NCBI GenBank assembly: GCA_914767715.1
Contig: OU612066.1
Span: 10,667,001 to 10,731,000, forward strand
Source of the DNA: Membranipora membranacea
Lineage: Eukaryota > Bryozoa > Gymnolaemata > Cheilostomatida > Membraniporidae
Direction: 5' to 3'
Length of the DNA: 64,000 nucleotides
How positions within the stretch are numbered: position 1 is the stretch's first letter; every line of letters starts with the position of its first letter. Made by a program: the position numbers and the translations under genes. Positions 1 through 57,917 of this stretch are shown here, piece by piece. The notes under the pieces are model-generated. The model did not search any database and had not been told where the DNA came from. It was given only the letters and a program-made list of their open reading frames with translations.

Positions 1-1
1 A

Positions 2-13131: not shown

Positions 13132-16010
13132 TTAGTAGAAGTCCACTCTAAGGGATCGACCAGCCTGCTGCGCTTGGCTAGTAGGATGTCTCAGTACAAT
13201 AAACACATGATCTCTATCATGGAACTTCTCAGAGTTCTTCTCACAATCACCACACAGGTCATAGTCCCTACACATTCTGCAAGTAAATGTATCAAGGACT
13301 TCATTTGTATCTAGAACAAGTTTGATCCCTCTGTGGTGACAGAGGGATATTGCAAATGTTTGGTATCGAAGCGCTGCGATGCCAAACATTTGCAATATCC
13401 CTCTGCCACCACAGAGGGAACAAACTTGTTCTAATTTGTATCAGAATCTTGATGACAATGATGAACTGAGAAGAAGTTTGAAACGCAAAGTTTTTTATAT
13501 ATATATATATATTCTTACCTACCATTCAAATTTTTATTGACTATCACAATAAAAAGCAGATCAGTAGCGGGATTTGTCTATTAAGTTGTTGACCTACCCG
13601 CATTTGTAGCGTGTACCAACAATTGGGTCTTTTCCACATCTATCACATTGAGTGGTAGTCGGCTTTGTGACTCCCATTCCTAGAATCTCGCCAACCAGAA
13701 CTGAATTCCTGTGGATGTGTGAACTAAAATCCTGACCCATACCCCTCTTGACCAAATCCTGCGAGGGGACAAATAAAGAGAAATCATTAAATGGGACAGC
13801 TTTTATGGGTCATACCACATTTAATATTTGTCATTCCACATTTATAACATTTGTCATATTATTATCTCTGAATATTTCTGTAAGACTACTGAGACAAAGA
13901 AATATATATATGCCCAGTGATAGTATATCTACATAGACCTACATCATCGAGCACACGTCCTCTGGGTACCCGCTGCTCTGCCGGGCGCTTCAGTTTGACA
14001 AATATGTGCCTCCTGTCATGTACATACTGTCTTGGCTTCTGTTCACATCTCTCACATAAGTCATAGTCATCACAGAAACTGTAATAAAATACAACCTCTT
14101 CTGTACCTCCCGAGTCGACAGGAAAGGCAGATAAACATAAACTTCATCTGGATTAGGTCATATATCTTCACAAGAGTTTTAATGTGGCAATTTTTTGAAG
14201 GTCCATCAATAATGTGCAAATTTCTAAGGAATTAAGGAATTAATTTCCTTACACCGCTAGTCTTTATCGCAGCTTTTTCCCAAACATCCTTTTACAGCCT
14301 CAGAGTAGAAATGGTTTGTGGTATGGTCAGAAGCATCAGAACAATCAGTTGAATGCAGTATGATCTCTTCATGTAAGCTTCGTGTGACCTTGCCGACCTC
14401 GCTGACCTTGTAATGACTTACCCACACTTATACCGACACCCAGTGATGCTTTCTGTTTTACACTCATCACATACTATCCCCCTGTGTACATTAGATGGTA
14501 ACCTTCTCTGTACACCCTGTCCCGCTCCTCCTCCTAGTAATGCCTCCAGTAAATCAAATGAAGACACGTCTCCATCTGAACTAGAGCTGGAACTGGAGGG
14601 AGGCCTTCTCCTACCACCCAAACCTAAGCATAAAAAAGTTAGGTTGAATTTTGATGGGTAGCAGTTGCGAAGGTCTATCGCTTTATCCCACTAACTAACC
14701 CACTGATATGTGATACAAAGTGCATTTTGCAAAAAAGTATGTATAGACAATTTATGCTTCAGTTAGACATAACCTGATGTGTGGAGAGTGTTAGCAATCT
14801 GGTTACCATCAATGAAAAGCATTGTGATCAGAATGACATTAACAGATCTTCTAAGATCCCCATAAGAGATACCGATCTCTGGACATCATAACAAAAAGTT
14901 CACTATTGGTCAACTTTGTCATACCTCCGGTCAGTGCTTCAGCAAAAGCTTCAGCCATGGCCTCCGCCAGTGCATCATCCCTGGACTTTGGAGGCTGTGG
15001 TTTAGGCTGCGGTGGAGGCGGCTGAGGTTTCGGTTGAGGTCTTTGTTGTGGTCGCGGTATTCCCAGTAAATTAGCCAGCCTTTGCTGCAGTTGCGGATCT
15101 GCCTCTATTTAAATAATAAAGAGGTAAAAATTCCGTATTTTAGTGGCTGTGTTTTGAATAAGACAACCATCCGATGAGTGTTTTGACTAACAAAGTAAAA
15201 CTCAACACTGGGTATCTTGTGAAGGTCACTCACTTTGCTACTTACGAGCTTGTTGACGTGGAGGTCGTGGTGGTGGCGGAGGTGATGTTCTTTGAGGAGT
15301 TGGTTGTGGATTAGGTCTGTTTCTAGGTGTATTGCTATTGTTTGCAGGCTCTGGATCTGCTCTAGGGCTGTAGGGTGGTGGAAGGACTTTGTTTGGTTTA
15401 TTCTGTGTGGACTGGCTTCCCCCTGTTGGCATGGGATTCCCTTCTGATGTTGCTAAAAATGGAGATTGTAAACGTTAGAAAAAAAGATCAGAGGGTGTCC
15501 TGCATGAGGGAGTTTCACAAAACAAATACAGCTATATTTATATTACTTCAAACACTGTATATATTGTGTGTTTTATATTTTCCACTGTCATTGAAATATG
15601 TCTTATTCATTCGCCGTGATGGGAATAGCAGTTGTAAACCTGAACCAAGCACATCACTCTCATGTATTTGTCTATCACTTGCCATATCTAGTTCTGATAG
15701 CTCCTCATCTCTAAAACTACGCCACCTATATGAAGGTGTCATACCGACCTTTGTGTTTCATAACGAGTCCCACCATATCATTGACAGCTGTATTGACAGG
15801 TAATCTGTGTAACTCTCTGGCTGCCGGTACTGTGTTCTCTCTGCACAGAGGACAAGGCTTCTTTGTGAACGTGGTCTGAAACTCTATCAGACACGAATAA
15901 CAGAAGCAGTGTTTACATGTCAGGCTTCTGGCGTCGGTAAACAGCTCTTGACAGATACTACATGTGATGATGTCCTCCATTCCCTGGAGATGCAAGTCTG
16001 CAGCCGCCAT
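13132..16010 (-). CDS. RING-ZZ-ZZ protein, array copy 1 (Pro-rich linker)
   Basis: Exons in transcript order: 16010-15749, 15452-15246, 15104-14925, 14623-14422, 14078-13943, 13758-13598, 13276-13132; 430 residues. The RING has ligands C17, C20, C32, H34, C37, C40, C53 and C56, which suggests E2 binding and ubiquitin ligase activity. Residues 88-215 are rich in Pro and Gln and include LPPPYSP, a PPxY motif of the kind bound by WW domains, and a PQPKPQPPPPQPKPQ stretch. A Ser run follows (PPSSSSSSDGD). ZZ1 starts at C268 (CDECKTESITGCRYKCG) and ZZ2 at C367 (CDRCGKDPIVGTRYKCG); each continues with FCDDYDLCERC- or MCRDYDLCGDC-type halves and an HDRxH motif. It ends in RSLRVDFY. It has the most exons of the seven, because the linker is spread over three. 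The ubiquitin ligase role is inferred from the RING. Confidence 0.9.
13303..13441. mobile_element. Inverted-repeat element, family A, copy 2 (intact, 8-bp target duplication)
   Basis: A near-perfect palindrome of about 123 bases (13311-13433) has ends CTAGAACAAGTTTGATCCC and GGGAACAAACTTGTTCTA, flanked on both sides by ATTTGTAT (13303-13310 and 13434-13441). The 8-bp duplication and lack of coding sequence fit a hAT-like MITE. It sits in the last intron of array copy 1, just upstream of the final exon. Confidence 0.85.
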
Positions 16011-17166
16011 CCTGCCTAAGGTGATATTGATGAAAAAGTAGTGTTAGCTATGTAATCAATGAGTTTAGTTCATTGATGTAATCTGATAGTGTTTCGCACA
16101 CTGCAGATGAACTTGTACACAGTTTCACTTTGCATTCATCTTATTTCTGCTGCACGCGGTATTAATGTCAGAGGGGGATGGGGGGATATTTAGATTTGGA
16201 ATAACTCAGGTAAACACTCATGGTATTGAATTCACATATTCTTTTTGTCTTATACAATATCCTGTTCATAAACCATGAATAAACAACAATAAATAGTAGC
16301 GGAACACCAACCTGTGTTGCTGGGTACTATCCCCTGTCTGTTCTGTATGTAGGATTTTCCTCCTAAAGTTGGTAGACCAAGGAGTTAGTCTCTAACTCCA
16401 TGGGTAGACTAAGTTCAAGTCTGACTATAGGTATTTTATTGTGAAAAAATGTCTGCAGTTTTTACTTAACCTGCAACTGCTAGAGGTACTCATTAACTAA
16501 CAAGTTTATCTTACTCTTGGCACTGACACAATGTCAACTATGATAAATGGGTCGCTTATCGAATAACAATAACAAGGAGCTATGTGGGAAATTGGGAATC
16601 CCAGAACGGGAAGTTTCAAATCTATCATGCATTCTATGCATGCTCAAAACTTTTTTTATGATACAAGTATTAGCAAAGTGGATAGTCCTACCATGAGGTG
16701 ACTGTCAAAATTTTTGATACCTGCAATAATGAAGACTGAAGAAGCAGTAGCAGTGGATTATTTGACAGTAGTTATCAGGTTTCATTGTATGTAATGTGGG
16801 GTGCAGAGAGTCGAGCATAGATATAAGTGTGCATATCATATTATGTGCTAGAAGATAACAGCTACATATCAGCTTTTATCACCCATAGTGCACCAGTATA
16901 ATGAGATCCTTCAATTATTATCTGTGGTAAATTCCAAGTTAACTTTTATTTCACCGGAAATATGTATACAATTATGAAAGTGCGTAAAGCTAGTTGAAAA
17001 TTGGCATACCAAATCATAAACTCAAACATTAAAAATATCAGACATAAAAGAATAATCGGACGGAAGCTGATGGCAATCGTCGGAGGTTTTATGGTGTTAC
17101 TAAACAGGTATCAATGCAGTCTGAATGTTGCCGATAAGACTCTACGTTCTACATCCATATTCGTCT
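16011..17166. other. Spacer between array copies 1 and 2
   Basis: No coding exon is seen. It should hold the promoter of copy 1 and the 3' end of copy 2. A short motif TTTAGTTCATTGATG near 16062-16076 also occurs in the hairpin at 32230-32281 and may be a repeat fragment. Confidence 0.5.
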
Positions 17167-19590
17167 TTACGTGTAATAGACACGCTTGAGCAGTTTGCTG
17201 CTTTCACCTGTAACTGTTGTGAGTGGATGTGGAATTTTCACAAACGGATGCTTTCGGTTGTGATTAGTCTCTGAGTTCTGCTCGCACTTCTCACATAAGT
17301 CGTAACTCAAGCAAACTCTGTAAATACATTTTGAGAAAACTCAATTACCCATAACAATGACTTGCTGTGATCGGTTCACGAGGGAGATGAATTTTTTTTT
17401 GTGTGCTTGGTTGAAACGGGTCTTAAAAATGACAATGACATTTTCGATGGATAGAAAAGATTATTATTTGGCAGTTACCTACCCACATCTGAAGCGAGCT
17501 CCTATGATTGGCATAGTTTTGCACGACCCACATTGGACAGATACTCGCGCACCAAGTTCACTCACATCTACGCTGTGCTCTTTGCCGCTAAAGTTCATTG
17601 TCTTTCCAAGTTTTGCAGCTTCCTAATGGATAAAAAGATATCCTGTGTGTGACCTACTCCATGTTTCTAACTGGCAACGGCCAGAAATTACGACATTGTT
17701 CATCATCTGCACCACAAGTATTTACACCACCTTAAATCATACCATAATATTATGACTATACTTTTACCATCAACAGGTCTATGCAATCAGAGTCACATGG
17801 GATTTATGTTTGGTATGTAAACACGGTCTAGTTATATAAATATATATCAGCCTTAGAAGACTGCTTGCCTTAGTGAGAGCCGGTCCTTGCCTTGGCGTTA
17901 TCACAGCAGGCTGTTTGAGTTTGATGAATAGATGCGTTGGCTCGTGGATGTCTTTGCGTGGTTTGGCCTCGCATTCTTCACACAAGTCAAAATCAACACA
18001 TACCCTTAATAAACAGCAATCATTATTAGAAATACCGTTGAGGAAAAAAGGAGAATTTAGCATTCCCACAATGCTATTTTAACCTGGAAGATCAGGATGA
18101 TACTCAGAAAAGTATATTTATATTAATGGTTTGTGGGTCAATCTCATTGAAAATAACATCGGAAGCATTTCACTGGGAATCCCAGTAAATTGCATTGTGG
18201 GATGCATATAATCATCCCCTCTTCCAGCTGAATGACCAAATAATGACATCACAATGTTCTTGTGGGGAGTTGAAAAGAAGAACAACCCTGTTGATTCCTA
18301 CTGCTGCTATTGTATATCAGCCTGGCTGTCCTACTACAAACTATGTACTGTGTGTTATATTCTTCTCTACAAACTGCAAACCGTAACGAACTGGTTCTTA
18401 TGTGGATAGCTAGGGCATAACTCACCCACATTCAAATCTTGCTCCAGTAAAGTTAGACTCCCCACAGCCATCACATGTATATCCAAAATGAGACACTTCT
18501 GTTAAAAATATTATTATTACAAACAGGTGTTGATAGATGTGTATGATACTACTCTCCGAGATTTTTCCTCACTCATAAATGTTTATTAAAGTATATTATT
18601 ATGTTATTTACTGTTCTACGAGCAGACAATAATTTGAGGTAACAAATAACATCATTTATAAACACCAACCTGGCCTGTTTTGAAGCGCTTCGGCTTTCTT
18701 TCTTTCCACTAAAACAGAGAACTTAAATGTATAAGTTTGGAATACTTAGGCTGATAGCTAGTATAGGAGCCATACCTGAGTACTTGCGCTGCAGTGGGGT
18801 TTCACTCTCAATCTCCCCATGTTGATTGTCAAGCGCCACTATTGCTACTGGTACCCAAGTCTGACCATAGCCTGGCTGATAGCTTAAGGTACAACACTTT
18901 GATCTAACTGATTATATAGACATTCAGGTTGTCACAGGATCAATGTTCTGAAACCAGAGACATGGTATACCCTTTCTGCTAACACTTGAGCAAAAGCAAA
19001 ATACATCGGTGCCAGGGCTCTATGGTCCATTAAAGTTCGTTTAGGCTCAAACTTTGGAGAAGCTTCGGTTAGGGATTACAAGTTATTTTCACTCATTTTC
19101 AGTTTATTTTCCATTTGAACCAATCAGATCTCAACTGATGTTGCCCCTGTGAATCAATGAAAATCACACATTCTATTTTTATGAAAGACAGAGAAAAGGT
19201 TTTGTTACCTATAGCCAGCATGGCTTTTCCCACTCTCTTGTTGGTATCCGAATCTGGTGACAGACTCTTCACAAGCTCTGCTGGTGGTACTGTCAAATCA
19301 TGACAGGTTGGACACTCCTTACTTTCTGATGTCATCTGCACGGTGCATAGACATGTGAAACAGAACACATGTCCACAGCTGAGTGATCTTGCGTCTGTGT
19401 AAAGCTTGTTACAGATTTTGCATTCTAGACCTGTAAGAACGATCTTTATATTTTCTTCATTGGATGCACCTGTTGCTTTGTCTGCTGAGACTACATTCAC
19501 TGCTGAGTTGGAGACGTCATCAGCAGCATTCAGCACTGATGTTATCTCCTGTTTGAGATCTGGTATGTTGCTGTCAACATGCTCCGCCAT
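17167..19590 (-). CDS. RING-ZZ-ZZ protein, array copy 2
   Basis: Exons in transcript order: 19590-19209, 18844-18776, 18708-18670, 18498-18426, 18004-17869, 17622-17483, 17317-17167; 329 residues. A 56-residue N-terminal extension precedes the RING (C57, C60, C72, H74, C77, C80, C93, C96). The linker is short, charged, and carried by two tiny exons of 69 and 39 bases. ZZ1 starts at C172 (CDGCGESNFTGARFECG|VCVDFDLCEEC) and ZZ2 at C264 (CGSCKTMPIIGARFRCG|VCLSYDLCEKC). The intron after 17869 starts with GC (AAG|GCAAGC) rather than GT; this is the only choice that keeps the phase-0 junction shared by all copies. The protein ends in LKRVYYT. The start is the first ATG in frame before the RING. Confidence 0.88.
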
Positions 19591-19796
19591 TTTAACATAG
19601 AATGATTGAATGTAACTGAGCAATCCTGTTTTTACTACTCCCGCATAGCAACTGGGAATAAAAGGGGATTTTTTGGCGATTGCAAAGCTGGATTTTCCAA
19701 AGACCTGAAAAGTACTGTTCTTGATTTCATGTTCTACAAAAAGCTTTATGTGACAAAAAATCGATGCAATCAATTTATTTGATCTGCTCACTATGT

Positions 19797-19888
19797 CAAA
19801 GGAGTTTATAAATGATTTATAAACTCCTTTGTCTCTCTATGAAAGTCTCATGCTTTCATAGAAAGTCTCTCTATGAAGAGAGACTTTC
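19797..19888. repeat. Pair of adjacent short hairpins
   Basis: CAAAGGAGTTTATAAATGAT folds onto TTATAAACTCCTTTG (19797-19831), and GAAAGTCTCTCTATGA folds onto AGAGAGACTTTC (19861-19888). They lie just upstream of the copy 2 start codon (outside the coding region) and look like palindromic repeat remnants. Confidence 0.7.
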
Positions 19889-20174
19889 TTTACTAAAGCT
19901 TGAGCTAAAAATACATCTTGATCTTCTTTGTTTTCGATATATTGCAAAGGTTAAAGAATATGAGAATCATCCGTGTAAAATATTTTTGGAAGCCCGAAAT
20001 CACCGCTCTATAAATAGGACAGCATTTATAGACAATGATATTTTTCATAAATACACCTGACTGCTTTGTTTTTATTTATTTATTTATGCATGGTCTTTAT
20101 TTGTCATTGACTTTGATCGGCAATAATAAAGTATATATATATATGATTTGAAGGGTGTGTTAACCCTAGAGTCT

Positions 20175-20213
20175 GTCTTTCTTTCGTTCTTTCTTTCTTC
20201 CTTTCCTTCTTTC
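20175..20213. repeat. CTTT/CCTT microsatellite
   Basis: An imperfect run of CTTT and CCTT units on the plus strand. It is simple-sequence DNA with no sign of function. Confidence 0.85.
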
Positions 20214-20419
20214 AATTCCTTTCTATTACGCCAGAACTGGGCTCACAAACTCCAAATTTTGCTTTCCAAGTCAGTTTTTGTTATGTTGCTTTTGCTTTAA
20301 ACTTCAATATTGCCTTCTGATCAAACGTAGCAGATAATTGAGAAAAAAAATATCCTTGGATCCCTTTAAAAAATATGTGGGTTAAAATCGCAAGTCTATC
20401 TCTGTCCGAAGATTGAGAA

Positions 20420-20605
20420 ATAGCAGTGCCTTAAGGGCGGGCCGTCGTATTCGGTGCCAAGTTGCTCTCAGTTTGCAGGCAGGTAGGAGCACACCTGGGA
20501 CGTCAATTGAGCCCAGTATTCAGTAGTCTGCAGCAGGGTTCGAACCCAGGACCTCCAACGCATGCGCATTAGGCGCTCTAGCCAACTGAGCTACCTCCTA
20601 CTCCC
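20420..20605 (-). mobile_element. tRNA-derived SINE
   Basis: Read on the minus strand, the head is tRNA-like: GTAGGAGGTAGCTCAGTTGG gives an A box, and GGTCCTGGGTTCGAACCC gives a B box with the right spacing for RNA polymerase III. The 3' side does not pair with the 5' acceptor strand, so it is not a working tRNA gene. A unique tail follows (CAAACTGAGAGCAACTTGGC), and the same tail is found again at about 39340-39405, which shows a repeat family. Confidence 0.75.
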
Positions 20606-22369
20606 TTATAGTGAGAAAGAGTGAGCCAACTATCACTATGACTATGCTACAAATTGTTGCTCATCCGTCTTGCAGTTTGGCAAATTCATACCCAAATCAT
20701 TTACTCAGAATTTATGAAGTCCCATCAATGAGTGCGCAATTTGAAAACGTGACCCGCTAGCAGGTCTCACTCACTCAGCTAGGAGTGATCAGATAGTGAT
20801 TTTGGCAGTTTTCAATCGGGAGATCCCCTTGGGAATAGGTATTGCAGGTGTTGTAGCTTGGGGGGGTGGTGCTCATCAACAATATGGTCACTTGTGACAT
20901 AATCCTGCTGGCATAGTCATTCTCTCATTTATAGACTTGGTGTCGGTTGATTGTTGGCCGCTGATGTCAATGAACACAAAAAAGGCCCAGCCAGGCTCTC
21001 AATGGTCTTTTTCATGTTTTTCACTACTGCTGCTGCGACTACCTTTTAATAATTTACCAGCCTGCCTGGTTTTCCTGCTTTGCGAATCATGATTATGGAA
21101 GATTGGCGAAACTCTCATCAAGACCAAATGGTATTGCGTCCAACCCAGCTCCTTACTTATGGCCGCATATCATAACTTATATTATATCATATGCCAAATC
21201 ATAGTCTGGCTTCTCCCATGACTGTGCAGTGTTTGACATGTGTTTTTATCGCAGGCTTATGTGGAAGGTTCCAATGTCATTGATAGAAAATCTAATCAAT
21301 GATAACCTTTTACCAAAATTAATGGCGGGCAGTAGATATATTATTCACATGATGAAAAAATTGTGTAGGTGATGGATAAAATGTCAATAATAATGCGAAT
21401 TGAAAAATCTTCAGTAGGTCGGGTTTATTTTCTGTTATTTCAAGTTTACTCGTTTTGCCTACTTTCAGTAGCTCCTCCACAACAAACAGCAACAGACAGA
21501 CAAGAAAAGGTGGATAAACTAAGATGCTGGGAAAATGGACCAAACATAATGTAAGAGATCTGATACTCTGAACCATATATATATATATATATATTGCGAT
21601 ATATTGTCGATTACTACACAGGTGTTGGTAAGATTGGTAACTGCCTTGATCTTGAAAGCTGAATGAGATTCTTAAAGGCGCACATACAATAATCCATAGC
21701 TAGGTAGAGAAAACAAAAGACAAGACAATGTTTTCACTGACTTGAAAATTCAATGGCTGCGGGCACCATGGTTAAAAGTCATTGACAGGAGAAAAAAATA
21801 CACTAATTCGCAAACTTCCGAAAAATTATTGAGGGGATTGTAAATAAAACCGCTGAATTCTGAAAAAACTTTTTTTGACATAAGCCAGGGCTCTCAACAT
21901 GGGAGGATCCAAGACCTGAGTTTCGCGGATACCGTGTTGCAGGTGGCATTTTGAAGGCGTGAAACGCCCTGTGCACAAACAGCTTAGAGTTTTAGAGCTC
22001 TGTTAGCCTCCTCAATGGGTCAAGCCGCCAAAGCCTAGAGAGCAATTTAGTCCTCTGCACATGAATGATACTGGTTTTTAGCAGATCACTGATATAGAAT
22101 CACTGTAAAATTCATCCTGGTTAATGTATTTCATATATCACAACATAAAATTGTTTCTTTATAATCATACAACTAGGCCACACCCAAAGGAATTCCCCAA
22201 CTTTGGACATTACAACTTTGTTAGGTATATAGTCAATAACGCAAAAATACAAGATATGCTAACCTAAAAAGTTTTTATAGTTTCAATGAATAACAAATCA
22301 GAATAAATGTTTGTTGTTGGTTTATATGTGTTTGGTGCAAATAAGGAAGGAATACCAACTCAATGGGAC

Positions 22370-25300
22370 TCAATCAGCATCGCAGAAAACTTCGCAAGCT
22401 GCAAACTCCGGATCGGTTTCAAGACTGCACTTTCCACTCAAATAGTCGCCTGTAATAAAAGAAATACCAAATTATCGCAATGCAAACACCTTTAAATGTC
22501 GGGCAGGAGAAGAGTCTGGGGAGGGGGTCAAACTATCCATCATCTATCAGAGGCGACTTAAACAGAATGTTCCATCCACAACATTTGGCATGCATATATT
22601 CCAGATGAGACATAAGCTGTCTGGCTGAAAGGCTTGATATTGTACCGATCGCCTTTATTGGCCCTTGCTGGAAATTCCAAAAAATTGCATTGTGGGATAC
22701 TCATGAACATGCCATTACAGTGTCCGTGAGGTTTCAGGCCATCAAGTATGAAAACAGCATATTTAAAATTATAGTGCAGATATTGGTAAATGTTCAACAG
22801 CCGTGCCAAAATGTAAGAGGTTTTACCATAAACATATAAATATTTATATAAAAAATATATATAAATGCTTATTTGTTTTAGGGTCTTGCTCCTGTTCAAT
22901 CATATCTGTATTTAGTCTTTTGTGATGTGGACTGACTGTCAACTTACCTGGCAGAAGTGTTTTCCCTTCCATCATATTGGGGTTGAGTGTATGTGGTACT
23001 TTGACAAAGATGTGAGTTTTATCATGGACCTTCTCACATATACGTTCACATGTCTCGCAAAGATCATAGTCTGCACACATTCTACAAGAAAAAACACAGA
23101 GCTTTGATGCATGGATATGAGATGTTAAGGTGATGTTACACTGCAGATTTTTCCATATGACTTTCCCGCCAGACATTTCAATCAGATTTTGCTCTATAAG
23201 CTATTATTGGGAGCAGCCAAAACTCTGAATTTTGTGATTATGTCACATATCTTTGGCTGGTTCCAATGGTAGCTTATATAAAAGAAACACTCACCGGCCT
23301 CTGATCAGCTATTTTGTGTCATACAAAACAACCAAAATGTACAATATCCGGAAACTGAGTGAAAGTATGCAAAACTTAGTCTCTCAGTTCACTAAATAAT
23401 AAGAGTCTCTCCAACTAAAATATTGTATACCAGGTTCTGGGTCTCGCATAGAATAGCAAGTACATCAGTTCATTAGGCATGGCGATAAGTATATCAACAC
23501 ATATAACAAATAAGATATAAGGCTTCAACCTCCCATGATGCAATGTTATGATATTTTAACCCATGTATTGAGTTACCATCGCCATATATGTTATTAATTT
23601 TGCACACAACTGACCCACACAGATATCTGTCTCCTCTCATGCCTCTAACATTACAATGATCACAACACACCAACCTCCTCACCACCTTACTATCTGTCTC
23701 GTTCACAACATAGGAATGGTGCCTACTACTGAAGTCCAACGCTTTGCTCACCTCATCTGCGATCTACAACGAATGTACATCAATTTAACCGCTGGTCCTA
23801 CGAAGATTTATGCAGTTCCTTAATACAACATGATGAATACGACTGTGGTAAGCTGTCAGCTTGAAATTTGATATCTGCCCCGCAGCAAAGAGGCAGTTTT
23901 ATTGTCAACAGGAACCGCAGAGTCGGAGCATAACGTTTTGCATTGTGCTCTGTCCAACCTCAAGAGTCAGAAACATTAGACGACTATGATTAAATGACAA
24001 ACAGTCATTCAATCAGCTTGATGAAAAGTGGATACCTTTTTCAGCACAGGAATCTTTGGGGGCTGGATTTCAGCAGGTTTTCTGAATTTAATGAAGAGAT
24101 GGGTGCGTGGATGTATGTCTGCTCTCGGCTTTGCCTCACAGTAAGCACAAAGGTTGTAGTTACGACAGTTACTAAAACGGAAGAATGAAGTCAATCAAAA
24201 ATTATGCCATATAATATGAATATGTCAAATGATATAATGTTGTCTGACTGAGATTTGATAAAATAATTAAAATAACAGAAATTAAGTAACCGTCGCTTCT
24301 CTCTTTACATCCATGAGCGTTTAACCTGCCCTTTAAATCTTGCCTTCAAATATCAAATGTAACTAGTAGAATTCGAGCAGTAAAAGGTTTATCTTATCCA
24401 CTACTAGTCTAAGTTCTCAGACACAGCTGCAATGCGAGTTAGTGGTATCAAGTTATCATTGAGTGGTTGATGATGAACATTCATAGATATCATATTATAT
24501 CGTAAAATAATTGCAACAGGAAATGTATAAAAGGTTGTGTGTTCGATTTCGAACAGATACAGCGGAGTCCAGAAGGGTGTCCTGCCTCGATTGGTCCTAC
24601 ACTACATCAGATAAAATCTCTGCATTACCTGAGAAAAAATCAACTATCGGTCCCTCTAAGGGTATCATGACCAATAACAACGTTAATGTTTATTTGCGCC
24701 CCCCCCCCCCTGTTAAATCGAAATTAATGATTGAGATCCAAATATTCTTATGTCTCCTCAAATAGCCGTCAATGAAATGCAATACATAACTAACTGCATA
24801 AAGAGTTGTCTTCAAAATACCTGCGATAAAACAAATTGGAGCGACACACTAATTTCAGTTTGATGAATGAGTGCCGTGGGTGAGTGTGGTTTGAGAAGAA
24901 TCAATGCATTCACTTACAACAGATATGACATATATTTTAAGTTTTGTCATCGAAAAGGTGGTGGTCAGCTAGACAGGTAGTGATGGTTTGGAGTCATCCT
25001 CATTAAATTCAACTGAGCTGGAATTGCATTAAATAGGAGTTGTCTCCCTTGTCTCTGATAGCATTTAGATTTATGCAGCTGTTTTGTATATCACAAGTGA
25101 CAATCATAAAAAGGCGTTATCATTCTTTTACTGCATTCGATAGCAGTAGGTACACAATAATAATTGCAAGTAATACAACACCTCTTTTAAAAATTGGAAA
25201 AAGTTTATTTAGTTTCATAATATGCATAAATGACATTATTGGCAAAGTCGCGTTTTCACGTTAAAATCATCCATTTTTTTGTACTGGGCAATTGCTACTG

Positions 25301-26934
25301 AGTGGTTCTTAGCCCTGAATTTATTCATTCTAAGCATTTGTACATGAGATTCTAACACGGATACTGGCGCCGCATCACCCATTGATTTTCTGGGATAATG
25401 CAGGCCTAGCCAGTAGGTCCATGACTAGTGGTATTCCACCACTCCAATCAAGCTCTTATATATAATGGTATCCATTCCATCGCTACTAACCAGCTTGCTC
25501 TAGTCAAACCTAAATCAAGGTTACTTACAACTCTCGCCTAGACTTACTAAGAGACGTACTCAGCCCTCTCTATCTGGTAATCATTTTTCACATGTCAGCA
25601 TTATTTCTTACAGATTTGAACCTTAGCATAGGCATATTATTGCATTCAATTATAATGCCACTTATTCTAACTGCAGCCGTCTGAGCACTTCTTACAACTT
25701 ACCCACACAAGAAACGAAAACCAGTAAAGTTTTTCTGATGGCAATTTCCACATTCAACACCAGTATGTGGCTCAAGGTTATATGTGGTGATGTGATTAAT
25801 GAGTTCTCGTCCAAGCTGGCTGGTAACTAAAAACAGGAGCAGATAACCGTACGAAGGAACTATGGTTATGTGATGTGTATCATCACCATTGTACAATATC
25901 ATCTTTGATGGCCGATCAAGTCACTTGGATATTAATTGGACCATGCACAAACAAAATTAAATGGTAAAGCTTATCAAGTGAATTGTAAAAAAGAACAACC
26001 CTACATACTTTTGTCCGCTAGTACCAACCGTAAACGTATCTATATTACATGTTTATGTCTACTTTGATATATGTATATATTAAGTCTATAACTATGACGG
26101 TAGTTGTTTAGCATGGGTATGTAACAATCAATCTTATCTTATCTCATCTATATTACATGTTTATGTCTACTTTGATATATATATATATATATATTAAGTC
26201 TATAACTATGATGGTAGTTGTTTAGCATGGGTATGTAACAATCAATCTTATCTTATCTTATCTATATTACATGTTTATGTCTACTTTGATATATATATAT
26301 ATTAAGTCTATAACTATGACGGTAGTTGTTTAGCATGGGTATGTAACAATCAATCTATCTTATATTCATGTCAAGATTGCTGGAGAGCAGCGAAATAAAA
26401 AGTGATTGACATTGACATTGACATTGACATTGACATGCACCATATCTTAGCATTATTGTAAGCGACATGTAAGGGTTACAAACAACGCTCATTTCCCCTG
26501 ATCAGCCACCAAGCTTTTTGGTAATGTATTAGGCTTGGTCTAGTTTTCAAGATTAATATGAAAATCAAGTGCTCACCTATTCTTAGTATCGCTACCCCAA
26601 CAGCCTTGTTAACTTCCTGATTAGGTGTTAAGTCCTTGACCTCTCCAACTGGCGGGATAGTTGTCAGCTCACAGCTTGGACATGGTTCATTTTCTGATCC
26701 TGTTTGAATACCCACCAGACAAGGAAAGCAGAACTCATGTCCACAGCTTAATATCCTGGCATCGGTGAAGAAATTTTGGCAAAGCGTACAGACCAGATTC
26801 CGGTATTCCTTTGACATTTCTTCAACCAGCAGAAGGGAATCACCAGATCCCTTTTCACCCACCTGTACACCATTGTTGACATTTGCTGGATTGTTTCTCT
26901 GCTGAAGCTGTGTCTCATTAGCTGCAGAGAACAT
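22370..26934 (-). CDS. RING-ZZ-ZZ protein, array copy 3
   Basis: Exons in transcript order: 26934-26577, 25826-25703, 24171-24036, 23763-23615, 23081-22948, 22449-22370; 326 residues. RING ligands are C49, C52, C64, H66, C69, C72, C85 and C88, after a 48-residue leader. The linker is only about 25 residues, the shortest in the array. ZZ1 starts at C145 (CGNCHQKNFTGFRFLCG|NCRNYNLCAYC) and ZZ2 at C240 (CDHCNVRGMRGDRYLCG|MCADYDLCETC). A small extra 3' exon adds a tail GDYLSGKCSLETDPEFAACE... with a high share of acidic residues and three cysteines, unlike the aromatic tails of other copies. That last exon rests on splice phase and frame only. The long introns contain tandem repeats and a C12 run. 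Confidence 0.85.
26039..26436. repeat. Three-copy 108-114-bp tandem repeat plus hexamer microsatellite
   Basis: Three direct copies begin at about 26039, 26147 and 26261, each TCTATATTACATGTTTATGT..., with variable AT-rich and CTTAT-type segments. They are followed by a (GACATT)n run at about 26405-26436. It lies in intron 1 of array copy 3. Confidence 0.9.
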
Positions 26935-36900: not shown

Positions 36901-37355
36901 AGACTGGCAAACTCCTTATGCCTATGCCATAATATTAACCCTCAAACTTCAAGCAAGGAGTAACAAATACTCTATGCTTCAAAGTGGATGTCTATATGGT
37001 CATATCTACCGGAAATTATTTGTAAGATTGGCAGGGTTGGGAAGTTGTTAGTTTTTTGTTCAGGTTTACCTTTTGTTTCTGGTTCATAAGTGTGTACCAA
37101 CATGACAAGTTGCTTTGCCAGCTCATTCTCTGGCAATCCATCGAGATCCTGTTTGATAGGTATTGTCTTTTCTCTACACACAGGGCAGTTCTTTGAATTT
37201 GAGGAGGAGGTCTGGAATCCTTGGAGACATATCAAACAGTAAGTATGTTCACATGTCAAAACTCTTGGATCAGTGTATAACTGTAGACAGATTCCACAAG
37301 TCACTGTTTGTTTGACATCCTCAAGCTGGATCTTGCTGCCTGCTGCCTGAGCCAT
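33927..37355 (-). CDS. RING-ZZ-ZZ protein, array copy 5 (acidic linker)
   Basis: Exons in transcript order: 37355-37070, 36657-36378, 35776-35635, 35426-35290, 34083-33927; 333 residues. The RING uses C20, C23, C35, H37, C40, C43, C57 and C60. The linker begins EEAPQWREP and runs into a strongly acidic Ser/Asp tract (DSDSSDEDSDDDGE), a Leu-rich part (LMMLNSDLSGLAGLLGL) and another acidic patch. ZZ1 starts at C174 (CDSCHGGVYGARYKCG|FCEDFDLCEEC) and ZZ2 at C266 (CDNCGTAPISGVRYKCG|VCADYDLCEEC). ZZ2 is preceded by a Met-rich MTMAMTMDVSKTEH segment nearly identical in copy 6, marking these two as closest relatives. It ends QLMYNFYETQEA. Confidence 0.92.
36811..36926. mobile_element. Palindromic MITE upstream of the copy 5 linker exon
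   Basis: CATAGGCATAAGGAGTTTGC starts one arm and GCAAACTCCTTATGCCTATG ends the other, with CAGCCTGTGAACTGCCCCC paired inside. Length is about 116 bases. It lies in intron 1 of array copy 5; target duplications are not evident. Confidence 0.8.
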
Positions 37356-38546
37356 TTGGCTGTCAGAAGTCTTCAGTTGAAGCTATAACCTATGAATATC
37401 CAGGCCAAGAAGTGAGAAACAACAGAAAAATAATAACATGACTAATTTATTATCAACATAGGAACTCAAGGTCAAGGTCATATTAAGGGGATTTTCCCAT
37501 AAATGTAAATTCCAAATTAGAACATAAGTCCCATCCTATCAATGGATAAATCCTATAGCATTCATGATTTTACTTGAAATTTTTATTCATTATCAATAAA
37601 ACACATAGCCACATCCTCTTTATTCCGCTGACTCCAACCCAAATTGTTGCTTGTACATTATATTGTTTCTAGCTGCATATCTGACAACCCAAGTTCGTAC
37701 AAAATCTTGCATTCAATTTCAAAAGGATCTCATGTTACTAATTCCTTTTTTTTCTGCCGCCCAGAGTCGGTCGAACAGTAAGCAGTGAGCAAATAAGGGG
37801 AGTTGCAGTGCCATAAAAGCATACAGGTGAACGCTCACATATGGTTTCTCTCTTTTCATATATTTTGAATGTATTTATATTTTTTATAAAATATGAGTAA
37901 TTATACTACTCAACTCGGACATGGATCACTCTTAAAAGTGGAAACATACTTTTAATAAATTTCGAAAAATGGACTTCACTGCAATATAATAAATTACATA
38001 GTCAATCCTTGGTACAATATAAGTTCTAAGGACAATCTGATGGGCAAAAAAAGTCATATCTTTTTTCATTATTTTGACACAGCAGACCTAAACACAGTAC
38101 CTATTGAGTGACTTACTGAACTAGGTAAGCAAGAAAAGGAAATAAGAGATATTAGTATGTTTATGAAACAGCAATCAAAATCTTGCAATTTCATCATAAG
38201 TGAGAAAATTTTACCATACACAATTTCATCCGTACACACATGCCACAAAACATAAATGCAAGGAATGAAGTAAAAAGTTTTTGGTCCCTTGTAATTGTAA
38301 TTAATATCCGACTAATACAGTTCGAATTTGTGGTTCACAGACTTATCATGATTGAATGCTCCTTCCTTCGCAATTCAGACTTGGATATCACACATATATT
38401 CCTTCCTTGTTATACATGTCGATTTGCTAATCTTGAGCATGTTGAGCTTGCACATCACGTCCCAGCAGCACAAAATGATTACATTATTTTCATGTTCCTT
38501 TTCCTCTGTGGATCCTCATTAAATGGGTTGGTAGAAAACTGGTGCA
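37356..38546. other. Spacer between array copies 5 and 6
   Basis: AT-rich DNA with no recognised exon or repeat. It should contain the promoter of copy 5 and the 3' end of copy 6. Confidence 0.5.
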
Positions 38547-41064
38547 CTATGCGTAGAAGTTATGTGTTAGTTGTGGCTCTGTAGTGTGAAATGCTGCTGG
38601 ATATTTGAATACCAGAAAGACGTGATCTGGATTATGTATTTCTTCTGATCGTTTCTCACATTCAGCGCACAAGTCATAGTCCTCACACACCCTGCCATGT
38701 TAACAAAAACCAGGTCTGTGTAAATAGTCGGTAGTCACTCTAAAGTCTAAGCACTGAGATAAGGTATCGCTGATTTGAGAAGGGCCGGTATACAGATCAT
38801 AGACAGGCCAGTTCTAATCTATTTTGGGTGATAACAATGTACTGTATATTATTTTATATAGCTTGGCAGGTCCTCAACTCATACTGTTACGTCATGTCAC
38901 TATTTTGGTAAATATTCCGTCATGTCATCGCAATACAGACTGTGTTGCCAAAAACTAACAGTTTGCCAATAAACAATGGTGATTATTTATGAGTTATTGG
39001 TCAACTGTAGTTATTGCGACATGGAGTGGAAGAACGAGATTATTCTTCTGCCAGATTTTCAGTGATAATACCCACCCACACTTGTAGCGGACTCCTGATA
39101 TAGGTGATTTCTTGCACTGAGTACAGAATACTTTCATCACTCTGTTCCCCTCAGCATGTGCTATATGCTCTGTTTTGGTGATGTCCATAGTCATAGCCAT
39201 CGTAAGAGCAGCCTGGTGAACAAAAATCAAACAGGTGTCATGCTGTGTAGCATACTCGGGCATTCCGAGTCAAGGCCTGAATTACATTCTCGCCTGTTTA
39301 TTTTTTGTGGGTAAAAAACGGAAATTTCTGACTCTGATGAAGACTGAGAAATGATGGTGCCTTACCTGTACATTCGGCGCCAAGTTGCTCTCAGTTTGCA
39401 GGCATAGTCATGAAAGAAAGCCTACCTAATCATGACCTACCTGACTCATATGAGCAGAGCCTGGCAGATAGCCGGTATGAGATAAATTGAAAAGCAAATG
39501 TTCGTGTTGCAGAAGTTTATGACCAAAGATTATACTCTTCTCCGGATGGAGGCTGTCAATTGGGGCAAGGGGTCTGGGGGGGGGGGGGCTTAGACTACTC
39601 AATTCTAACAAGTTATACTCACATCCTTAACAAAAGTTCCATGGGGAGAAGACTTCCTTGGCTTCTTTAGTTTTACAAATACATGGGGAAATTCAGTTTT
39701 ATGTGCTTCCATGCGTGGCTTATCCATACATGCCTCACAAAGGTCGAAGTCATCACAGTTTCTGCAAATATAAACCATGATGAGGCATTGGAGGGTCCCT
39801 TAGACTAAGACAGGCGACTCTTGTCTTAATAGCACTTCAAATACAATGTCCAAACACCCCAACAGTCTGTGGTGTTAGACTCTTGATAAAAAAGTGTTTT
39901 TTCTTTGTTAGTGGAATTGCTCTCCCTCCTATGGTGAACATAATTGTGTACCATCTGGGCCAAGAATCATCCATACCATCTAGACCAAGTTTGATCCAGT
40001 TTGCCAGGAATACTGACTAATCAGCCGTAGAAGAGGTATATCTGTGGAAAGGGAGCAATCCCCAATGAAGGCAAACTGGATTAAACTTGGTCTACATCAG
40101 GGCTACCAAAGGGGCAGCATTGAGAAATCCCGTTTTGTCAAAGAATTATTGGAGTAATGAAACTGGGATTTAGTCTGCGCTTTGCATCTGTATTCGAGAA
40201 GGAAGGTTATCAACATACCCACACTTGAAGCATGCTCCAAAAATTGGCTTCTTACAAGAATCACAAGTCACCCCATTATGTCTGACTTCGCCACCTGCGG
40301 CTCCTGCAGTCTCCCCTTCCGTGCCGAGTAGCCGCATGAGCTGAGCGAACTGTGTAAGCCTGTCTTCTCTGAGTAATCTCATCAAACCAGCGAGGTGATC
40401 ATCTGATTCCTCATCACTATCGGCATCCCCTTCGCCAGGCTCCTGCCACTGTGGAGCTTCTGTGAATTAAAAAAACTCATTGATAAAAAATGTCAATTTC
40501 TACAGGTGCCCAACACAATCCATCGGTTAATCATTTCAGTTAAGCCAATGAGTTATCTGTAACTATGCAGAGCAAGGAAAAAAATTGGTTTGAGAAAAAA
40601 GAAGTGGGTTGACACAGTCCAGGTATCAACCGCAAATCTACAAGACAATAATTCGGTGGAGTTTACGTATTTGACTTGGGGAAGCTATTTACCTTTCAAT
40701 GGAACAAGCCGCTAAGAACACAAAAACTATTCCTAAGCATGTTGTTTTACCTTTTGCATTGAAAGTAGCACTTACCTCTAGTGTCAGGTTCATAGTTGTG
40801 TACTAAGCCGATTAACTGAATAGCTAAATTGTTGACTGGCAAATCCGTCAATTCTTGTTTGGTAGGTATTGTCTTTTCTCGGCATTCTGGACAGTTTTTC
40901 TTGTTGCTTGAAGACTTTTGGAATCCTTGCAGACATGTGTAACAATAAGTGTGACTACATGTTAAAGACCGAGGATCAGTAAATAGCTGCAGACATATCC
41001 CACAAGTCACTGTCTGTTTGATTTCCTCCAGCTGTTGTTTACCCTCCAGAGTAGCTGCAGCCAT
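38547..41064 (-). CDS. RING-ZZ-ZZ protein, array copy 6
   Basis: Exons in transcript order: 41064-40776, 40459-40219, 39761-39623, 39212-39076, 38691-38547; 316 residues, the smallest of the seven. The RING uses C21, C24, C36, H38, C41, C44, C58 and C61. The linker opens EAPQWQEP, is acidic (DADSDEESDD), then carries LAGLMRLLREDRLTQFAQLM, a likely amphipathic helix. ZZ1 starts at C162 (CDSCKKPIFGACFKCG|NCDDFDLCEAC) and ZZ2 at C253 (CTQCKKSPISGVRYKCG|VCEDYDLCAEC). The segment TMAMTMDITKTEH before ZZ2 and the tail FHTTEPQLTHNFYA match copy 5 closely. All introns are short. Confidence 0.92.
39340..39405 (-). mobile_element. SINE tail fragment
   Basis: The block CGGCGCCAAGTTGCTCTCAG and flanking bases match the 3' part of the SINE at about 20420-20605, in the same orientation. 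The tRNA-like head is missing here. Confidence 0.65.
39981..40094. mobile_element. Inverted-repeat element related to family A
   Basis: Ends TAGACCAAGTTTGATCCAGT and ACTGGATTAAACTTGGTCTA are inverted copies around an unrelated 60-base centre. The outer 17 bases differ from family A (TAGAACAAGTTTGATCC) at one position, so this is probably another branch of the same transposon. It lies in an intron of array copy 6. Confidence 0.75.
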
Positions 41065-42605
41065 GCCTCTCTGTCAAATTCTATTTGATATTTTAAAATG
41101 AAATGGTAACCTATTCCAAGCAATTCAGAAAGTATCAACTTGGCTGATGCAGAGCAAATGCACTAGTTAGGCTATGCTAGTTAGGCTATGCTGCAACTTA
41201 GTATGCATACTTTGTACACAATTATCAATAGAGTATAGATTAGTCAACACAAAGCACCCAGTTTATGTATGGGTGTGTGCTAAGTATTTTGGAATTCCCA
41301 ATGTTGCAGTTTCTATTCTGCCAGCTAATACATCTTTAATACAGCTTATGCATGGTGAGAAAACTTCAAACTACAGCATACTTCATTTCATAATCGGTAC
41401 AGAGAAGATAACAGCATACCTTTGGGGTGTGCTCAGTATTTTTAGAATATTTTAAGTGGCAGTTAGGGTTTTGCCAAATAATGCAGGTGATGAGGAGGGG
41501 ACTGGTACCGGTGAAACGTGAATAACTCTTCTTCATGAAGTCCCATAAATATATAATTTTTCCTGAGAATGCTTTAATCTTGACTCAAAAAAGGATGGTG
41601 TGTTTTTCATGCCCACCTATACACTTGAGATAATACATGTTCAACATTACCTGCAATATAGCCCACAATGAATGCAAACATATTTTGGTCAAAAATATGT
41701 AGAGGAATGTTCTCCGAAGTACTAAACAAGATAGTGTCAACTTTGCCCGCATCCATGGTAGTGGCATTCAATTGTTAATTATATTATCAATTATTAATCA
41801 ATCGCCTTATCATGGAATGTAATGCCACTCGAAGCAACTAAACAAGCAAATTTATTTCTAACATAAATTATGACATTAATTGTAACCATACACATTTCTT
41901 TACATATTACACATTGATTAAATGTCAAAAAATTTTGCTACCTCCAATGTAAATATTATGTAGAGAGGTGCCACGTCAGATACCCATATTCTGCAATATC
42001 CATCCACCACCAGAGGAAACAGACTTGTTTTATTTAGAACACGATGCATTGTAAGCTATTAGTTACAAAACTATTAAATATTCAGATTATACATTCTATT
42101 TTATGTTCAAGTATAACCTATTTAAACTTTACTAGGGAAACTATAAATGGATACACACCACCACAACCATTATCATTGCTGCCACCAAGGTCACAGAGGT
42201 AACCGGTATGGACAATGTTGAGACTCGTATAAAGCTACTAATATAAAATCAAAATTTATCCTGGATCATTATATTGTGTGACATAACAACTGTATAGCTG
42301 TCAACACTGCAGCGGCAGCAGTCTCTGTTTATATTTTATACTGCCTGTTAGATTCAGTCTTAGCTAGACCTTTGTATAGCTGTCAAGCATACTTTATTAC
42401 ACGCAATAGAAATCTAGAATAATGTAACCTAAAACACAAACTCGCTACTGCTGTACCCCTAACACAGATAGGGGCACACATTATAACAATCATTATAAAG
42501 TATGCAGAGGTGCTTGCGAGAATAAATCAGAGAAATAGAATGTCAAACTTATTATGTATGCATATGTTGCAGTAAATTTTTTCATGAAAACCAAACTCCC
42601 TGTGC
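41065..42605. other. Spacer between array copies 6 and 7
   Basis: No coding exon is recognised. A fragment of the family A inverted-repeat element is present at about 41990-42030. Confidence 0.5.
41990..42030. mobile_element. Fragment of family A inverted-repeat element
   Basis: TCTGCAATATCCATCCACCA followed by CAGAGGAAACAGACTTGTTT matches the right end of the elements at 2132-2342 and 13311-13433. The left end is not detectable. Confidence 0.6.
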
Positions 42606-45600
42606 TTAGCCGCATTGTAATGAGGAATACCTGTTTATCTGATTAGGACGTGAGTCTCTATGTAGAGTGTTAGGCCTACTGATTGGTTGGTTATACCTCA
42701 GCTGCCGAGCTGCAGGGTCTATATCAAGTTCATCATCACAGCTGTCGTCACTGTATGAATTGTAGTCATATGTATGTATGTGGTTACGTGGAGAATGCCT
42801 GCCGGCTTCTGGCTGCACTTGAGATACCGCTGCAGATGGTGTGGTAGGGTGTGACACACTACCGATTCCACGCTGAATATCAATTTCCCAAACATTGGGG
42901 TCTTCAATGTCGGATCCTCGTTCCTCTGCCATGAGAATATTTACGATTTCTTGTACTTCGTTGCTTTCCCGTGACCATGTATAGTAAGTGAGAGGGAAAT
43001 CTCCTCCTGCCGGAGTCATTCTGTACAGAGGAGTGCTGGTGTAGTTCTCTAGAACTCGAGGTATCATGATAAAAGGATGACACGGATGAAAGTTCTCTGA
43101 TGACTGCTCACATGTCTCACAGATATCATACTCCTCACAAACCCTACAAATCAACAATCACTATACTTACATTAATGATGCTAGATAAGCAGGTTGTGGC
43201 AATATCCTGCAGGACCGTAGTTCTAAGTGAGACATGGAGGCACTGCTGCCTCCCCTAAAACACTGAATAAAGTGGTCCAAAATCACTATAGTTTTGAATA
43301 ATCCAAGTCAGAACCAGTCTCACTCTTACGTTTACTATTTATTTACATACCTCACCTGGTGCTGCTGCGTAGTTTGTAACCCCCAGAATTATTGCCTCCC
43401 CTAACCGTTGTTCTAAACTAAAGCCTTGTCTGCGGACTGGTAGACCTCATCATTTCACAACTTGAAAGCTTATACTGGGGAGTCAGTTAAGGTACATGAA
43501 TATGTTGCACTGAAATCTGCCTTACCCGCACTTATATCTAACACCAGTTATGGGTGATGCGCCGCAGTGATCACATTGTATATTCAGCCAGTTTCCAGGA
43601 TTCACTTGTATGACGTGAACATCCTCCGGAGCTCTGATAGCCAAGTGCGAAAAAGTAGTCATCTCCTGTAGGTGAACCTGAAATGAAACATTGATAAACA
43701 GATAGTCAGTCAAAATATTCAACTGATTGACAAAAGTTTACAAAGGGTCGGCTGTAGCATTACCGAACTTGTGGACCAATCAAAGACTAGAAATACCATA
43801 TATAAATTGCCATAATATGCTTGGTCAGAGTCAGATATGTTCCCCTTATCCACAAAAATATTATATCAGTGTTTATTAGGCTTCCTAAAACAATCATTCC
43901 TAATATATTCAAGGGAACAAAATTCCAATAACTCTAGTTTTTTTTCTTATGAATATATACAAATTACTGATTCTCTTAGATGAACACAACTTTTCCCACT
44001 ATAGACCAAACATAGATAAAGCCAGAATAATTTACCTCTCTACTTCGAGCTGCCCTATCACATACTCCTGGAGTTTTGATCTTGACCAATAGATGACTGC
44101 TATCATGGTCTCGGTTGGGATCATGGAACCCTGTCTCCAAAGCGTGCACAGCGCATAAATGGTAGTCATCACATACGCTGCAGGAAAAACAAAAACTCAG
44201 TGCAATACAACACAAAGCTGATGGTATTACTCTCATGTGCCATGACGACTCATCAATATACATGAGCTATTGGTCATAAGCAGTGGCAAGAAAAACTAGC
44301 TATAGCAATTTCTTATTAAGAAAACATAAAACATCTTATACCGACTTGTATGAAACACTGATGGTAACGGAAAATCAATACACAGGAAACTTGCTTACCT
44401 ACACTGGTACCTTACGCCAATAATACCTCGACCGCTCAGACATCTCCGACACTGGTAAGGAAAGTGACTCCTTTGGTAATAGTTGGTATTTCTCAAAGGA
44501 AAGGTAAGAAAATTCGTCCACCTCTCCATTGCATCACCCCAATGGTGAGCTTCATTCCCTGCGACCAGTGTGTTTATCCTGGATGTAAATGCCCCATGTC
44601 TGGTCGTCCTTGGCGTTGATGCCACCAGTGCTGAGCTGGATGTTGATGCCCCACCGAGCCGGTTCTGCTGCTCTTGGTGCTGATGTTGTTGCTGATTCCG
44701 GTATTCTTGTAGCTGTTGTTCAGCAGTTTGTGGTTCACCTTCTGAGGTTGGCTGAACGGCTCTAGTGGTAGCTCCAGATGGAAGTTGTGCCGCAGCAGCT
44801 GTATCAGACAAAAAAGAATAAAAGTTTTGTTACACAAGAGTTTTGAGGCCTCACTGACAGTTTATACAGTAGAAAATTACTAATTCATACAGCATGTTTA
44901 GTTAGCATCTTCTGAAACTCACAATATTAAGTAATAACGGTGCCTATGAACGGTAATTCTTCAACTAAACAGATATCAAAGTTTTTCAGCTTGACACGGG
45001 ATACAATAATTGTTATGGTTTAGTACCTGACAGCATTTTGCATTCCCACACTTCGTGTCAGTGAGTGATGAAATTCATTGGTACCATACCATGTTGAGCT
45101 TAGCTAGATTTATTAATAACACACTGCTTCAAAGGGGTAACTGTTAATTGCTGAACAGGCTGAACAGACTGAACAGCTGAATAGAATTTCTCAGACTACT
45201 ATTCGTTTGATTCTTTACATGATTGTCTAATTTTACATGAGCATGGACAATTCTTTATATTCTTCGCATTAAATCATTTATTTTAATTTGCATTCACCCA
45301 TGGTTTCTTTCAATTTTATTCTCAGTAATTTTTTTGGTATTACACTACTAGTGAATGGATGGAAAGTAGCCCCCCCCCCCCCCCCCCTATAAACAAAGCT
45401 TGTTAAGACTGGCTAGAGGGAAGTTTGAGCTGGATAATGTTTCTGGTATCCAATTTCCAGAACACCATCAGATTTTGTCATAATTGGCACATTGATTGCT
45501 TCATTTGCTTGCCCTAAATTGGTTATATTAGGTGCCAACAGGAACTTAGTGACTCATCAAATCATTTGGTTAGGAGGAATGTGTTTGAGAAGTAATAGTC

Positions 45601-46175
45601 AGCCAGAGAAATGATTACAAATAATAATTTTAGTCTGAGAAATTCTGTTCAGCTGTTCAGTAATTTACAGTTACCGGCTTCAAAGGATACCCAATCTATC
45701 CACAGTGCGTATCGATATAGCCTCTCATACTATGCTGACCTAAGCTACATTGTGAAAATCTGCTAACTAAGCCACTATCAGTGATCAATAAATGAGAAAG
45801 TTCTTTGCTGTGACGTGATGCCTACATGCAACTGTCAATCAAAAGCAGGTTTTCGTAAGAGACATCATGTGACATACCTGGAGCTGCAACAGCAGGATTC
45901 TCAAATCGCTGCATCAGCTTGACCAGTTCCTCTGCAAGCTTGTTCTTAGGCAGCATCATAAGCATATTGTTGAACGGCACCGTCATCTGCTTGCAGACAG
46001 GGCAAGGCATATTGGAGTAGTTGCTCGGCTGCAAATTCTGAAGACATTCTAAGCAGAAAGTGTGGTTGCATGGCAGACCACGCGGATCAGTAAATGCATC
46101 TAGACAGATGGGACATTTAGTAGTTTGCTGTACGTCACCCAGCTGGATCTGAGCTCCTCCGCTAGCACCTGCCAT
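42606..46175 (-). CDS. RING-ZZ-ZZ protein, array copy 7 (long tail, altered ZZ1)
   Basis: Exons in transcript order: 46175-45878, 44798-44399, 44177-44036, 43677-43526, 43143-42606; 509 residues, the largest copy. The RING uses C21, C24, C36, H38, C41, C44, C58 and C61, with KCPICLDAFTDPRGLPCNHT. The linker is Gln/Ala/Ser/Thr-rich (QQQHQHQEQQ). ZZ1 starts at C216 but is unusual: the Gly at the intron is Ser (QCS|VCDDYHLCAVH), the sixth ligand Cys is replaced by His, and the spacing to the final H pair is longer. ZZ2 is regular (C315, CDHCGASPITGVRYKCG|VCEEYDICETC). The last exon continues about 140 residues beyond ZZ2 with an acidic, Ser/Asp/Tyr-rich low-complexity tail. Start is the first ATG of the frame; a GTG codon lies just before it. 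Confidence 0.9.
45370..45387. repeat. Poly-C run
   Basis: 18 consecutive C residues on the plus strand, in intron 1 of array copy 7. Similar C or G runs occur at 24699-24710, about 39573-39586 and about 56126-56140. Confidence 0.9.
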
Positions 46176-57834: not shown

Positions 57835-57917
57835 AGGCTAATAGATAAGTCCACTTTGAGATAACCGCCCAGCTTTTGTTTTATATTTTAGGGTAGACAG
57901 GCAGCTTACTAGGCTTT

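Follow-up and report, generated by a model that had tools for sequence, protein, structure and literature searches.

A tandem array of seven RING-ZZ-ZZ genes in the bryozoan Membranipora membranacea and its possible role in reading protein N-termini

What might a protein do in which one RING finger is joined to two ZZ fingers, and does this arrangement belong to any described family? The question is raised by a 64,000-nucleotide stretch of the genome of Membranipora membranacea (Bryozoa, Cheilostomatida; assembly GCA_914767715.1, contig OU612066.1, positions 10,667,001-10,731,000, forward strand), here called the window, within which all coordinates below are positions. It contains seven complete genes arranged head-to-tail on the minus strand, at 13132-46175. 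Both outer limits are exact, the ATG of the first gene standing at 46175 and the stop codon of the last one ending at 13132. The genes are labelled g1 to g7, transcription order running from g7 (first) to g1 (last), and RZZ is used as the family name.

Seven genes of one architecture

A motif scan in six frames found seven RING patterns, 14 patterns of the ZZ 5' half (13 on the minus strand and one in a separate plus-strand gene) and 13 of the ZZ 3' half, those on the minus strand being confined to 13-46.2 kb. Fifty dinucleotide-preserving shuffles of the window contained on average 0 RING, 0 ZZ 5'-half and 0.16 ZZ 3'-half patterns. Two halves missed by the patterns, the 5' half of the first ZZ (ZZ1) of g6 and the 3' half of ZZ1 of g7, were recovered via the reading frames. 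When the window was searched by tblastn (E 1e-3) with nine proteins, namely g1-g7 and two relatives introduced below, no additional copy or fragment of the array was found among 303 matches; just six lay outside model exons, all of them on the plus-strand ZZ at 8.8 kb.

Splice sites were picked from the sequence and from agreement among the copies. All seven genes give an ATG-to-stop frame of five exons without internal stop, with exon-boundary phases 1,2,0,2 in every copy, and the proteins measure 293-509 residues. In Pfam, each protein displays a RING match exceeding the curated cut-off and two ZZ stretches. Gene models and Pfam thus bear out the preliminary description of this DNA, which had claimed seven complete open frames with one RING and two ZZ fingers each. 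An in-frame stop is present upstream of the chosen ATG in all seven genes, and AATAAA or ATTAAA lies at most 600 bases 3' of the stop codon in six. Introns are GT-AG in 27 of 28 cases and GC-AG in one; the donor of g2 intron 3 (17868-17867) is the sole non-GT donor of the array. This GC donor and the weak exon-1 donor of g1 (GTCGGT) are the shakiest splice calls. Upstream of the genes, no 10-mer is shared by more than two of the seven, the same as in random stretches.

Exons and domains correspond closely. The RING is encoded in exon 1, and ZZ1 is divided between exon 2, which also holds the preceding linker, and exon 3. Exon 4 contains the inter-ZZ linker with the first half of the second ZZ (ZZ2), and exon 5 the rest of ZZ2 and the C-terminus. 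A phase-2 intron splits every one of the 14 ZZs at an identical point, within the codon after the third cysteine. This shared intron position, together with the similarity of the ZZ1 and ZZ2 profiles (48% identity over 52 columns), suggests that both fingers arose by duplication along with their intron. All eight RING zinc ligands are present in each of the nine proteins. Across the copies, the ligands of RING and ZZs are all kept, except the sixth cysteine of g7 ZZ1, a degenerate finger with possibly a histidine in its place.

The linkers are more variable. A leucine-rich stretch, recognized by eye, occurs between RING and ZZ1 in g1, g4, g5, g6 and both relatives; it is absent from the short linkers of g2 and g3. 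A motif of approximately M-x-x-D-x-S/T followed by His was likewise seen by eye between the ZZs in most members and both relatives, its His being invariant. In g5 this motif reads TMAMTMDVSKTEH (35426-35379), with counterparts at the exon-4 starts of the other genes; it may be a binding motif, and in the modelled relative it sits in a linker of low model confidence.

Relatives and domain affinities

Searching about 5.8 billion proteins with g5 revealed two uncharacterized proteins (P0001 and P0002) of another cheilostome bryozoan, Watersipora subatra, one 51% identical to g5 over 96% of its length, the other 50% over 98%. Each of them contains RING, ZZ and ZZ in one chain. Taken by themselves, the two matches point to a bryozoan source of the window other than W. 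subatra, half of the residues being different. They are the only full-length holders of this domain order that the search of other proteomes, proposed in the preliminary description, brought to light. An eight-member profile found no further full-length relative among 4008 candidates; its next matches covered the ZZ part only (40-50% of the query) and came from fungi and metagenomes, with a few weak RING-only matches. The search with g7 gave eight partial matches and no full-length relative among the best 7995 candidates by shared words. Since these searches require shared five-residue words and similar length, the absence of relatives elsewhere is weak evidence. The Watersipora proteins have a similar inter-ZZ motif and C-terminus; unlike the seven-gene array, the two found there lie on different contigs.

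The copies are 29-57% identical in pairwise comparison and their synonymous sites are saturated, the proportion of synonymous differences (pS) being 0.73-0.85. The ratio of nonsynonymous to synonymous substitution (dN/dS) was computable for just two of 21 pairs and, because of this saturation, is not numerically meaningful. Because the proteins have stayed alike although their synonymous sites are saturated, the array is probably old and maintained. The whole-protein tree of nine sequences resolved g2+g3 as its sole split (support 100/99), leaving five of six inner branches open, and has three long branches. A tree of 42 ZZs, which offers too few columns, weakly places most ZZ1s and most ZZ2s in separate groups; g7 ZZ1, g2 ZZ2 and g3 ZZ2 fall outside these, and a nematode ZZ (P0052) falls within the ZZ1 group.

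Among structures in the PDB, the RING profile is nearest to TRIM2 (9.6e-14), TRIM5 and TRIM3. ZZ1 is nearest to HERC2 (8.4e-14), the fission-yeast protein P35G2.11c (2.5e-12), which we take to be Nbr1, p62 (1.2e-11) and KCMF1 (1e-10), and ZZ2 to P35G2.11c (1e-12), p62 (3.1e-12) and HERC2 (7.4e-12). In the AlphaFold model of P0002, the single member modelled, the RING (about residues 10-90) and both ZZs have a predicted local distance difference test (pLDDT) score of about 90, and the leucine-rich stretch appears as a 27-residue helix (110-136, pLDDT about 70), the one predicted helix that could be compared with the long coiled coil of TRIM ligases. The top two chains retrieved with this model by Foldseek were the TRIM2 RING and the p62 ZZ. 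A single-sequence fold of P0002 gave no usable model (mean pLDDT 37). Sequence establishes, as far as it can, the order of the domains, the structure of the genes, the retention of nearly all zinc ligands, the affinities of RING and ZZs and the union of the domains in one protein in the relatives.

At E<=0.1, Pfam matches of the seven proteins include no B-box (PF00643), PB1, UBA, HECT or MIB/HERC2 domain, no ankyrin repeats and no C2H2 zf-Di19-like region (PF05605); no TRIM C-terminal domain is among their Pfam matches either. These absences separate the family from each of its nearest known systems. TRIM ligases (TRIM2, TRIM5, TRIM3, TRIM21) share the N-terminal RING with flanking helices and are nearest by RING sequence and fold, whereas the array proteins lack a B-box, having two ZZs instead, and the TRIM C-terminal domain. 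Mind bomb (MIB1) unites ZZ and RING in one ligase and its ZZ is a close match, but its RING is C-terminal and it carries MIB/HERC2 domains and ankyrin repeats. HERC2, the best ZZ1 match, whose ZZ has been solved with SUMO1 and H3 tails, is a giant HECT ligase. p62/SQSTM1 and NBR1 have ZZs of the same class, that of p62 reading N-degrons, and NBR1-like proteins can hold several ZZs; unlike RING ligases they are autophagy receptors, and their PB1, FW and UBA domains are not reported by Pfam in the array proteins. KCMF1, acting with UBR4, is alike in having an N-degron-reading ZZ in a ubiquitin ligase and is itself not known to have a RING. Its ZZ is followed by predicted C2H2 fingers and it works within the UBR4 complex (excerpt of PMC12286842).

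Mind bomb, KCMF1 and HERC2 are thus arranged differently, as had been stated earlier; the nearest functional precedent, Arabidopsis PRT1, was not named there. PRT1 is an N-degron ubiquitin ligase combining RING and an N-terminus-reading ZZ in one chain. It is a plant protein with two RINGs and one ZZ (excerpt of PMC11668491), in contrast to one RING and two ZZs in all seven proteins here, and its ZZ is a moderate match (2.3e-7 for ZZ1, 3.6e-6 for ZZ2). No paper naming a RING-ZZ-ZZ family was found in the open-licence part of PMC, which excludes subscription journals, and the main text of a paper on TRIM origin (PMC3503706) contains neither 'zz-type' nor 'ZZ finger'. Neither these literature searches nor the protein searches gave a described family with the order RING, linker, ZZ, ZZ; the preliminary description knew of none among animals. 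The components are familiar, and PRT1 sets the precedent for coupling a RING to a ZZ that reads N-termini; the order is new as far as we have found.

A possible ligase reading protein N-termini

We give an even chance to the explanation that the proteins are TRIM-type RING ligases which capture substrates via ZZ pockets of the p62/HERC2/KCMF1 kind, reading protein N-termini. The seven proteins would belong to one family of intracellular RING ubiquitin ligases. The TRIM-like RING would recruit E2~ubiquitin, and short helices flanking it could permit dimerisation. The ZZ pair, joined to the RING by the linker, would capture a substrate by its free N-terminus, be it an N-degron or an N-terminal tail that has been exposed or processed, for ubiquitylation by the RING. 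With two flexibly tethered ZZ pockets, a number that RING dimerisation would double, such a protein could bind oligomeric or aggregated substrates with avidity, and the array as a whole would supply seven pocket pairs that have diverged from one another. That the proteins are active ligases, dimerise, read N-termini and divide specificity among the copies is what we infer.

As for the RING, its last cysteine is immediately followed by the linchpin. Most RINGs use His, Lys or Arg as linchpin (excerpt of PMC11992055); in TRIM25 it is R54, and the RING dimerises through its flanking helices (excerpt of PMC4864278). At the position after the last cysteine, six of the nine proteins have Arg, g7 has Lys, g2 His and g3 Glu. 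With a positively charged residue there, eight of nine RINGs look ligase-competent, and g3, which lacks one, may be a pseudoligase.

The pocket of the ZZs is less telling. D129 and D149 of p62 bind the N-terminal amine, in a groove that D147 and N132 complete (excerpts of PMC6197226 and PMC6098011). Mutation of Asp29/Asp31 abolishes recognition of an N-degron substrate by KCMF1 (excerpt of PMC12286842), and PRT1 uses an aspartate pair (excerpt of PMC11668491). Of the 18 ZZs of the family, 12 have the equivalents of both D129 and D149 (ZZ1 7/9, ZZ2 5/9), at least one ZZ with the pair being present in each of the nine proteins; g3 ZZ2 carries the equivalents of D129, N132, R139, D147 and D149. 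Several observations weigh on the other side. One aspartate or the other is lost in six of 18 ZZs, Asp also occupies the D129 position in 17 of 24 ZZs from outside the family (counted by eye), and one intact ZZ per protein is, given the losses, expected by chance in about 28% (10/36). Moreover, the ZZ of Mind bomb lies near as well, ranking above KCMF1 for ZZ2, and dystrobrevin ranks above PRT1 for both fingers. Since such aspartates occur widely in ZZs and chance may account for the pattern, the pocket seems compatible with N-terminus reading and not diagnostic of it. The earlier proposal that these could be ligases recognising N-terminal degrons or tails gains some support from ZZ affinity: HERC2 and p62, themselves readers of N-terminal tails or N-degrons, belong to the closest solved structures for ZZ1 and ZZ2 alike, as KCMF1 does for ZZ1. 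The role itself stays a proposal.

A possible, if rather unlikely, alternative is that the ZZ pair structurally replaces the B-boxes of TRIM proteins, serving as scaffold, in self-assembly or in binding internal motifs as in Mind bomb, with no reading of N-termini. The closeness of the Mind bomb ZZ is countered by the ranks of HERC2, p62 and KCMF1, which precede it for ZZ1, and of HERC2 and p62, which do so for ZZ2; the aspartate pair in all nine proteins also speaks against this alternative, though with the chance expectation just given. Tandem expansion, strong divergence between copies and the TRIM-like RING would fit an innate-immune expansion, in which pathogens drove diversification and the copies recognise foreign or damaged proteins. 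We consider this unlikely as the main explanation, and it is compatible with N-terminus reading; the divergence may simply reflect age, and the saturated synonymous sites preclude a test of positive selection. More doubtful still is that the proteins are HERC2-like readers of modifier or histone tails (SUMO1 or the H3 N-terminus), linked to chromatin or SUMO and not to N-degron quality control: HERC2 leads for ZZ1, but p62 ranks above it for ZZ2, the differences in Z are about 1, and Pfam matches of the seven proteins include no nuclear or chromatin domain. That RING and ZZ exons form separate alternating genes is hardly credible and was rejected, since, although splicing was deduced from sequence, order, strand and phases are identical in all seven copies and both Watersipora proteins hold the three domains in one chain.

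Returning to N-terminus reading, a more specific form of it is conceivable, at less than even chance. RZZ would be a bryozoan-born (or bryozoan-surviving) family that combines a TRIM-type RING with a duplicated p62/HERC2-type ZZ, its members acting as bivalent single-chain N-terminus readers and as an independent animal counterpart of PRT1, with seven tandem specificities and g3 as a possible pseudoligase partner.

Surroundings and meaning of the array

The genes and the other features of the window are listed in the table. The neighbouring ZZZ3-type ZZ is not favoured as source of the array ZZs, since it best matches ZZZ3 and its frame continues past the intron site of all 14 array ZZs.

Table. 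Array genes, in order of transcription, and further features of the window
Feature	Position	Strand	Residues	Exons	Remarks
g7	46175-42606	-	509	46175-45878, 44798-44399, 44177-44036, 43677-43526, 43143-42606	RING-ZZ-ZZ with long C-terminal tail; first gene of array; RING and 2 ZZ in Pfam
g6	41064-38547	-	316	41064-40776, 40459-40219, 39761-39623, 39212-39076, 38691-38547	RING-ZZ-ZZ
g5	37355-33927	-	333	37355-37070, 36657-36378, 35776-35635, 35426-35290, 34083-33927	RING-ZZ-ZZ
g4	31955-28532	-	332	31955-31676, 31454-31157, 30291-30153, 29841-29705, 28676-28532	RING-ZZ-ZZ
g3	26934-22844	-	334	26934-26577, 25826-25703, 24171-24036, 23763-23615, 23081-22844	RING-ZZ-ZZ; groups with g2
g2	19590-17167	-	293	19590-19209, 18498-18426, 18004-17869 (GC donor), 17622-17483, 17317-17167	RING-ZZ-ZZ; groups with g3
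g1	16010-13132	-	301	16010-15749, 14623-14422, 14078-13943, 13758-13598, 13276-13132	RING-ZZ-ZZ; last gene of array
ZZZ3-type ZZ finger	8778-8912	+			Separate gene beside array; best PDB match ZZZ3 (2e-11)
eIF2A-domain protein pieces	49690-53316	-			Upstream of array, same strand; presumably eIF3B
SET/MYND frame	57897-59861	+	654		Uninterrupted, apparently intronless; SET and MYND above cut-off, weak TPR matches; presumably SMYD4-like
72-nucleotide tandem repeat	1-830	+			Its one open frame holds about ten 24-residue leucine-rich repeats (about SIGQLTNLTSLDIS); open at window edge
Inverted repeats	3300-3850, 6731-7084, 13312-13433, 51814-52356				Possible small mobile elements; 13312-13433 lies inside g1 intron 4 and has relatives at 2131-2190 and 2278-2340
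148-nucleotide repeat	48540-52593				Four copies and a fifth copy of its 56-nucleotide core, in and near eIF2A-domain gene

Regardless of N-terminus reading, the array adds a domain architecture whose sole annotated relatives found bear the name 'uncharacterized protein'. Should the proteins indeed read N-termini, a single-chain RING-ZZ N-degron ligase, known from plants as PRT1, would exist in animals too, with two readers in place of one, and the seven members would form a natural series for studying how the specificity of a ZZ pocket changes. Ligases of this kind would then have expanded in a phylum that has been little studied, and perhaps nowhere else.

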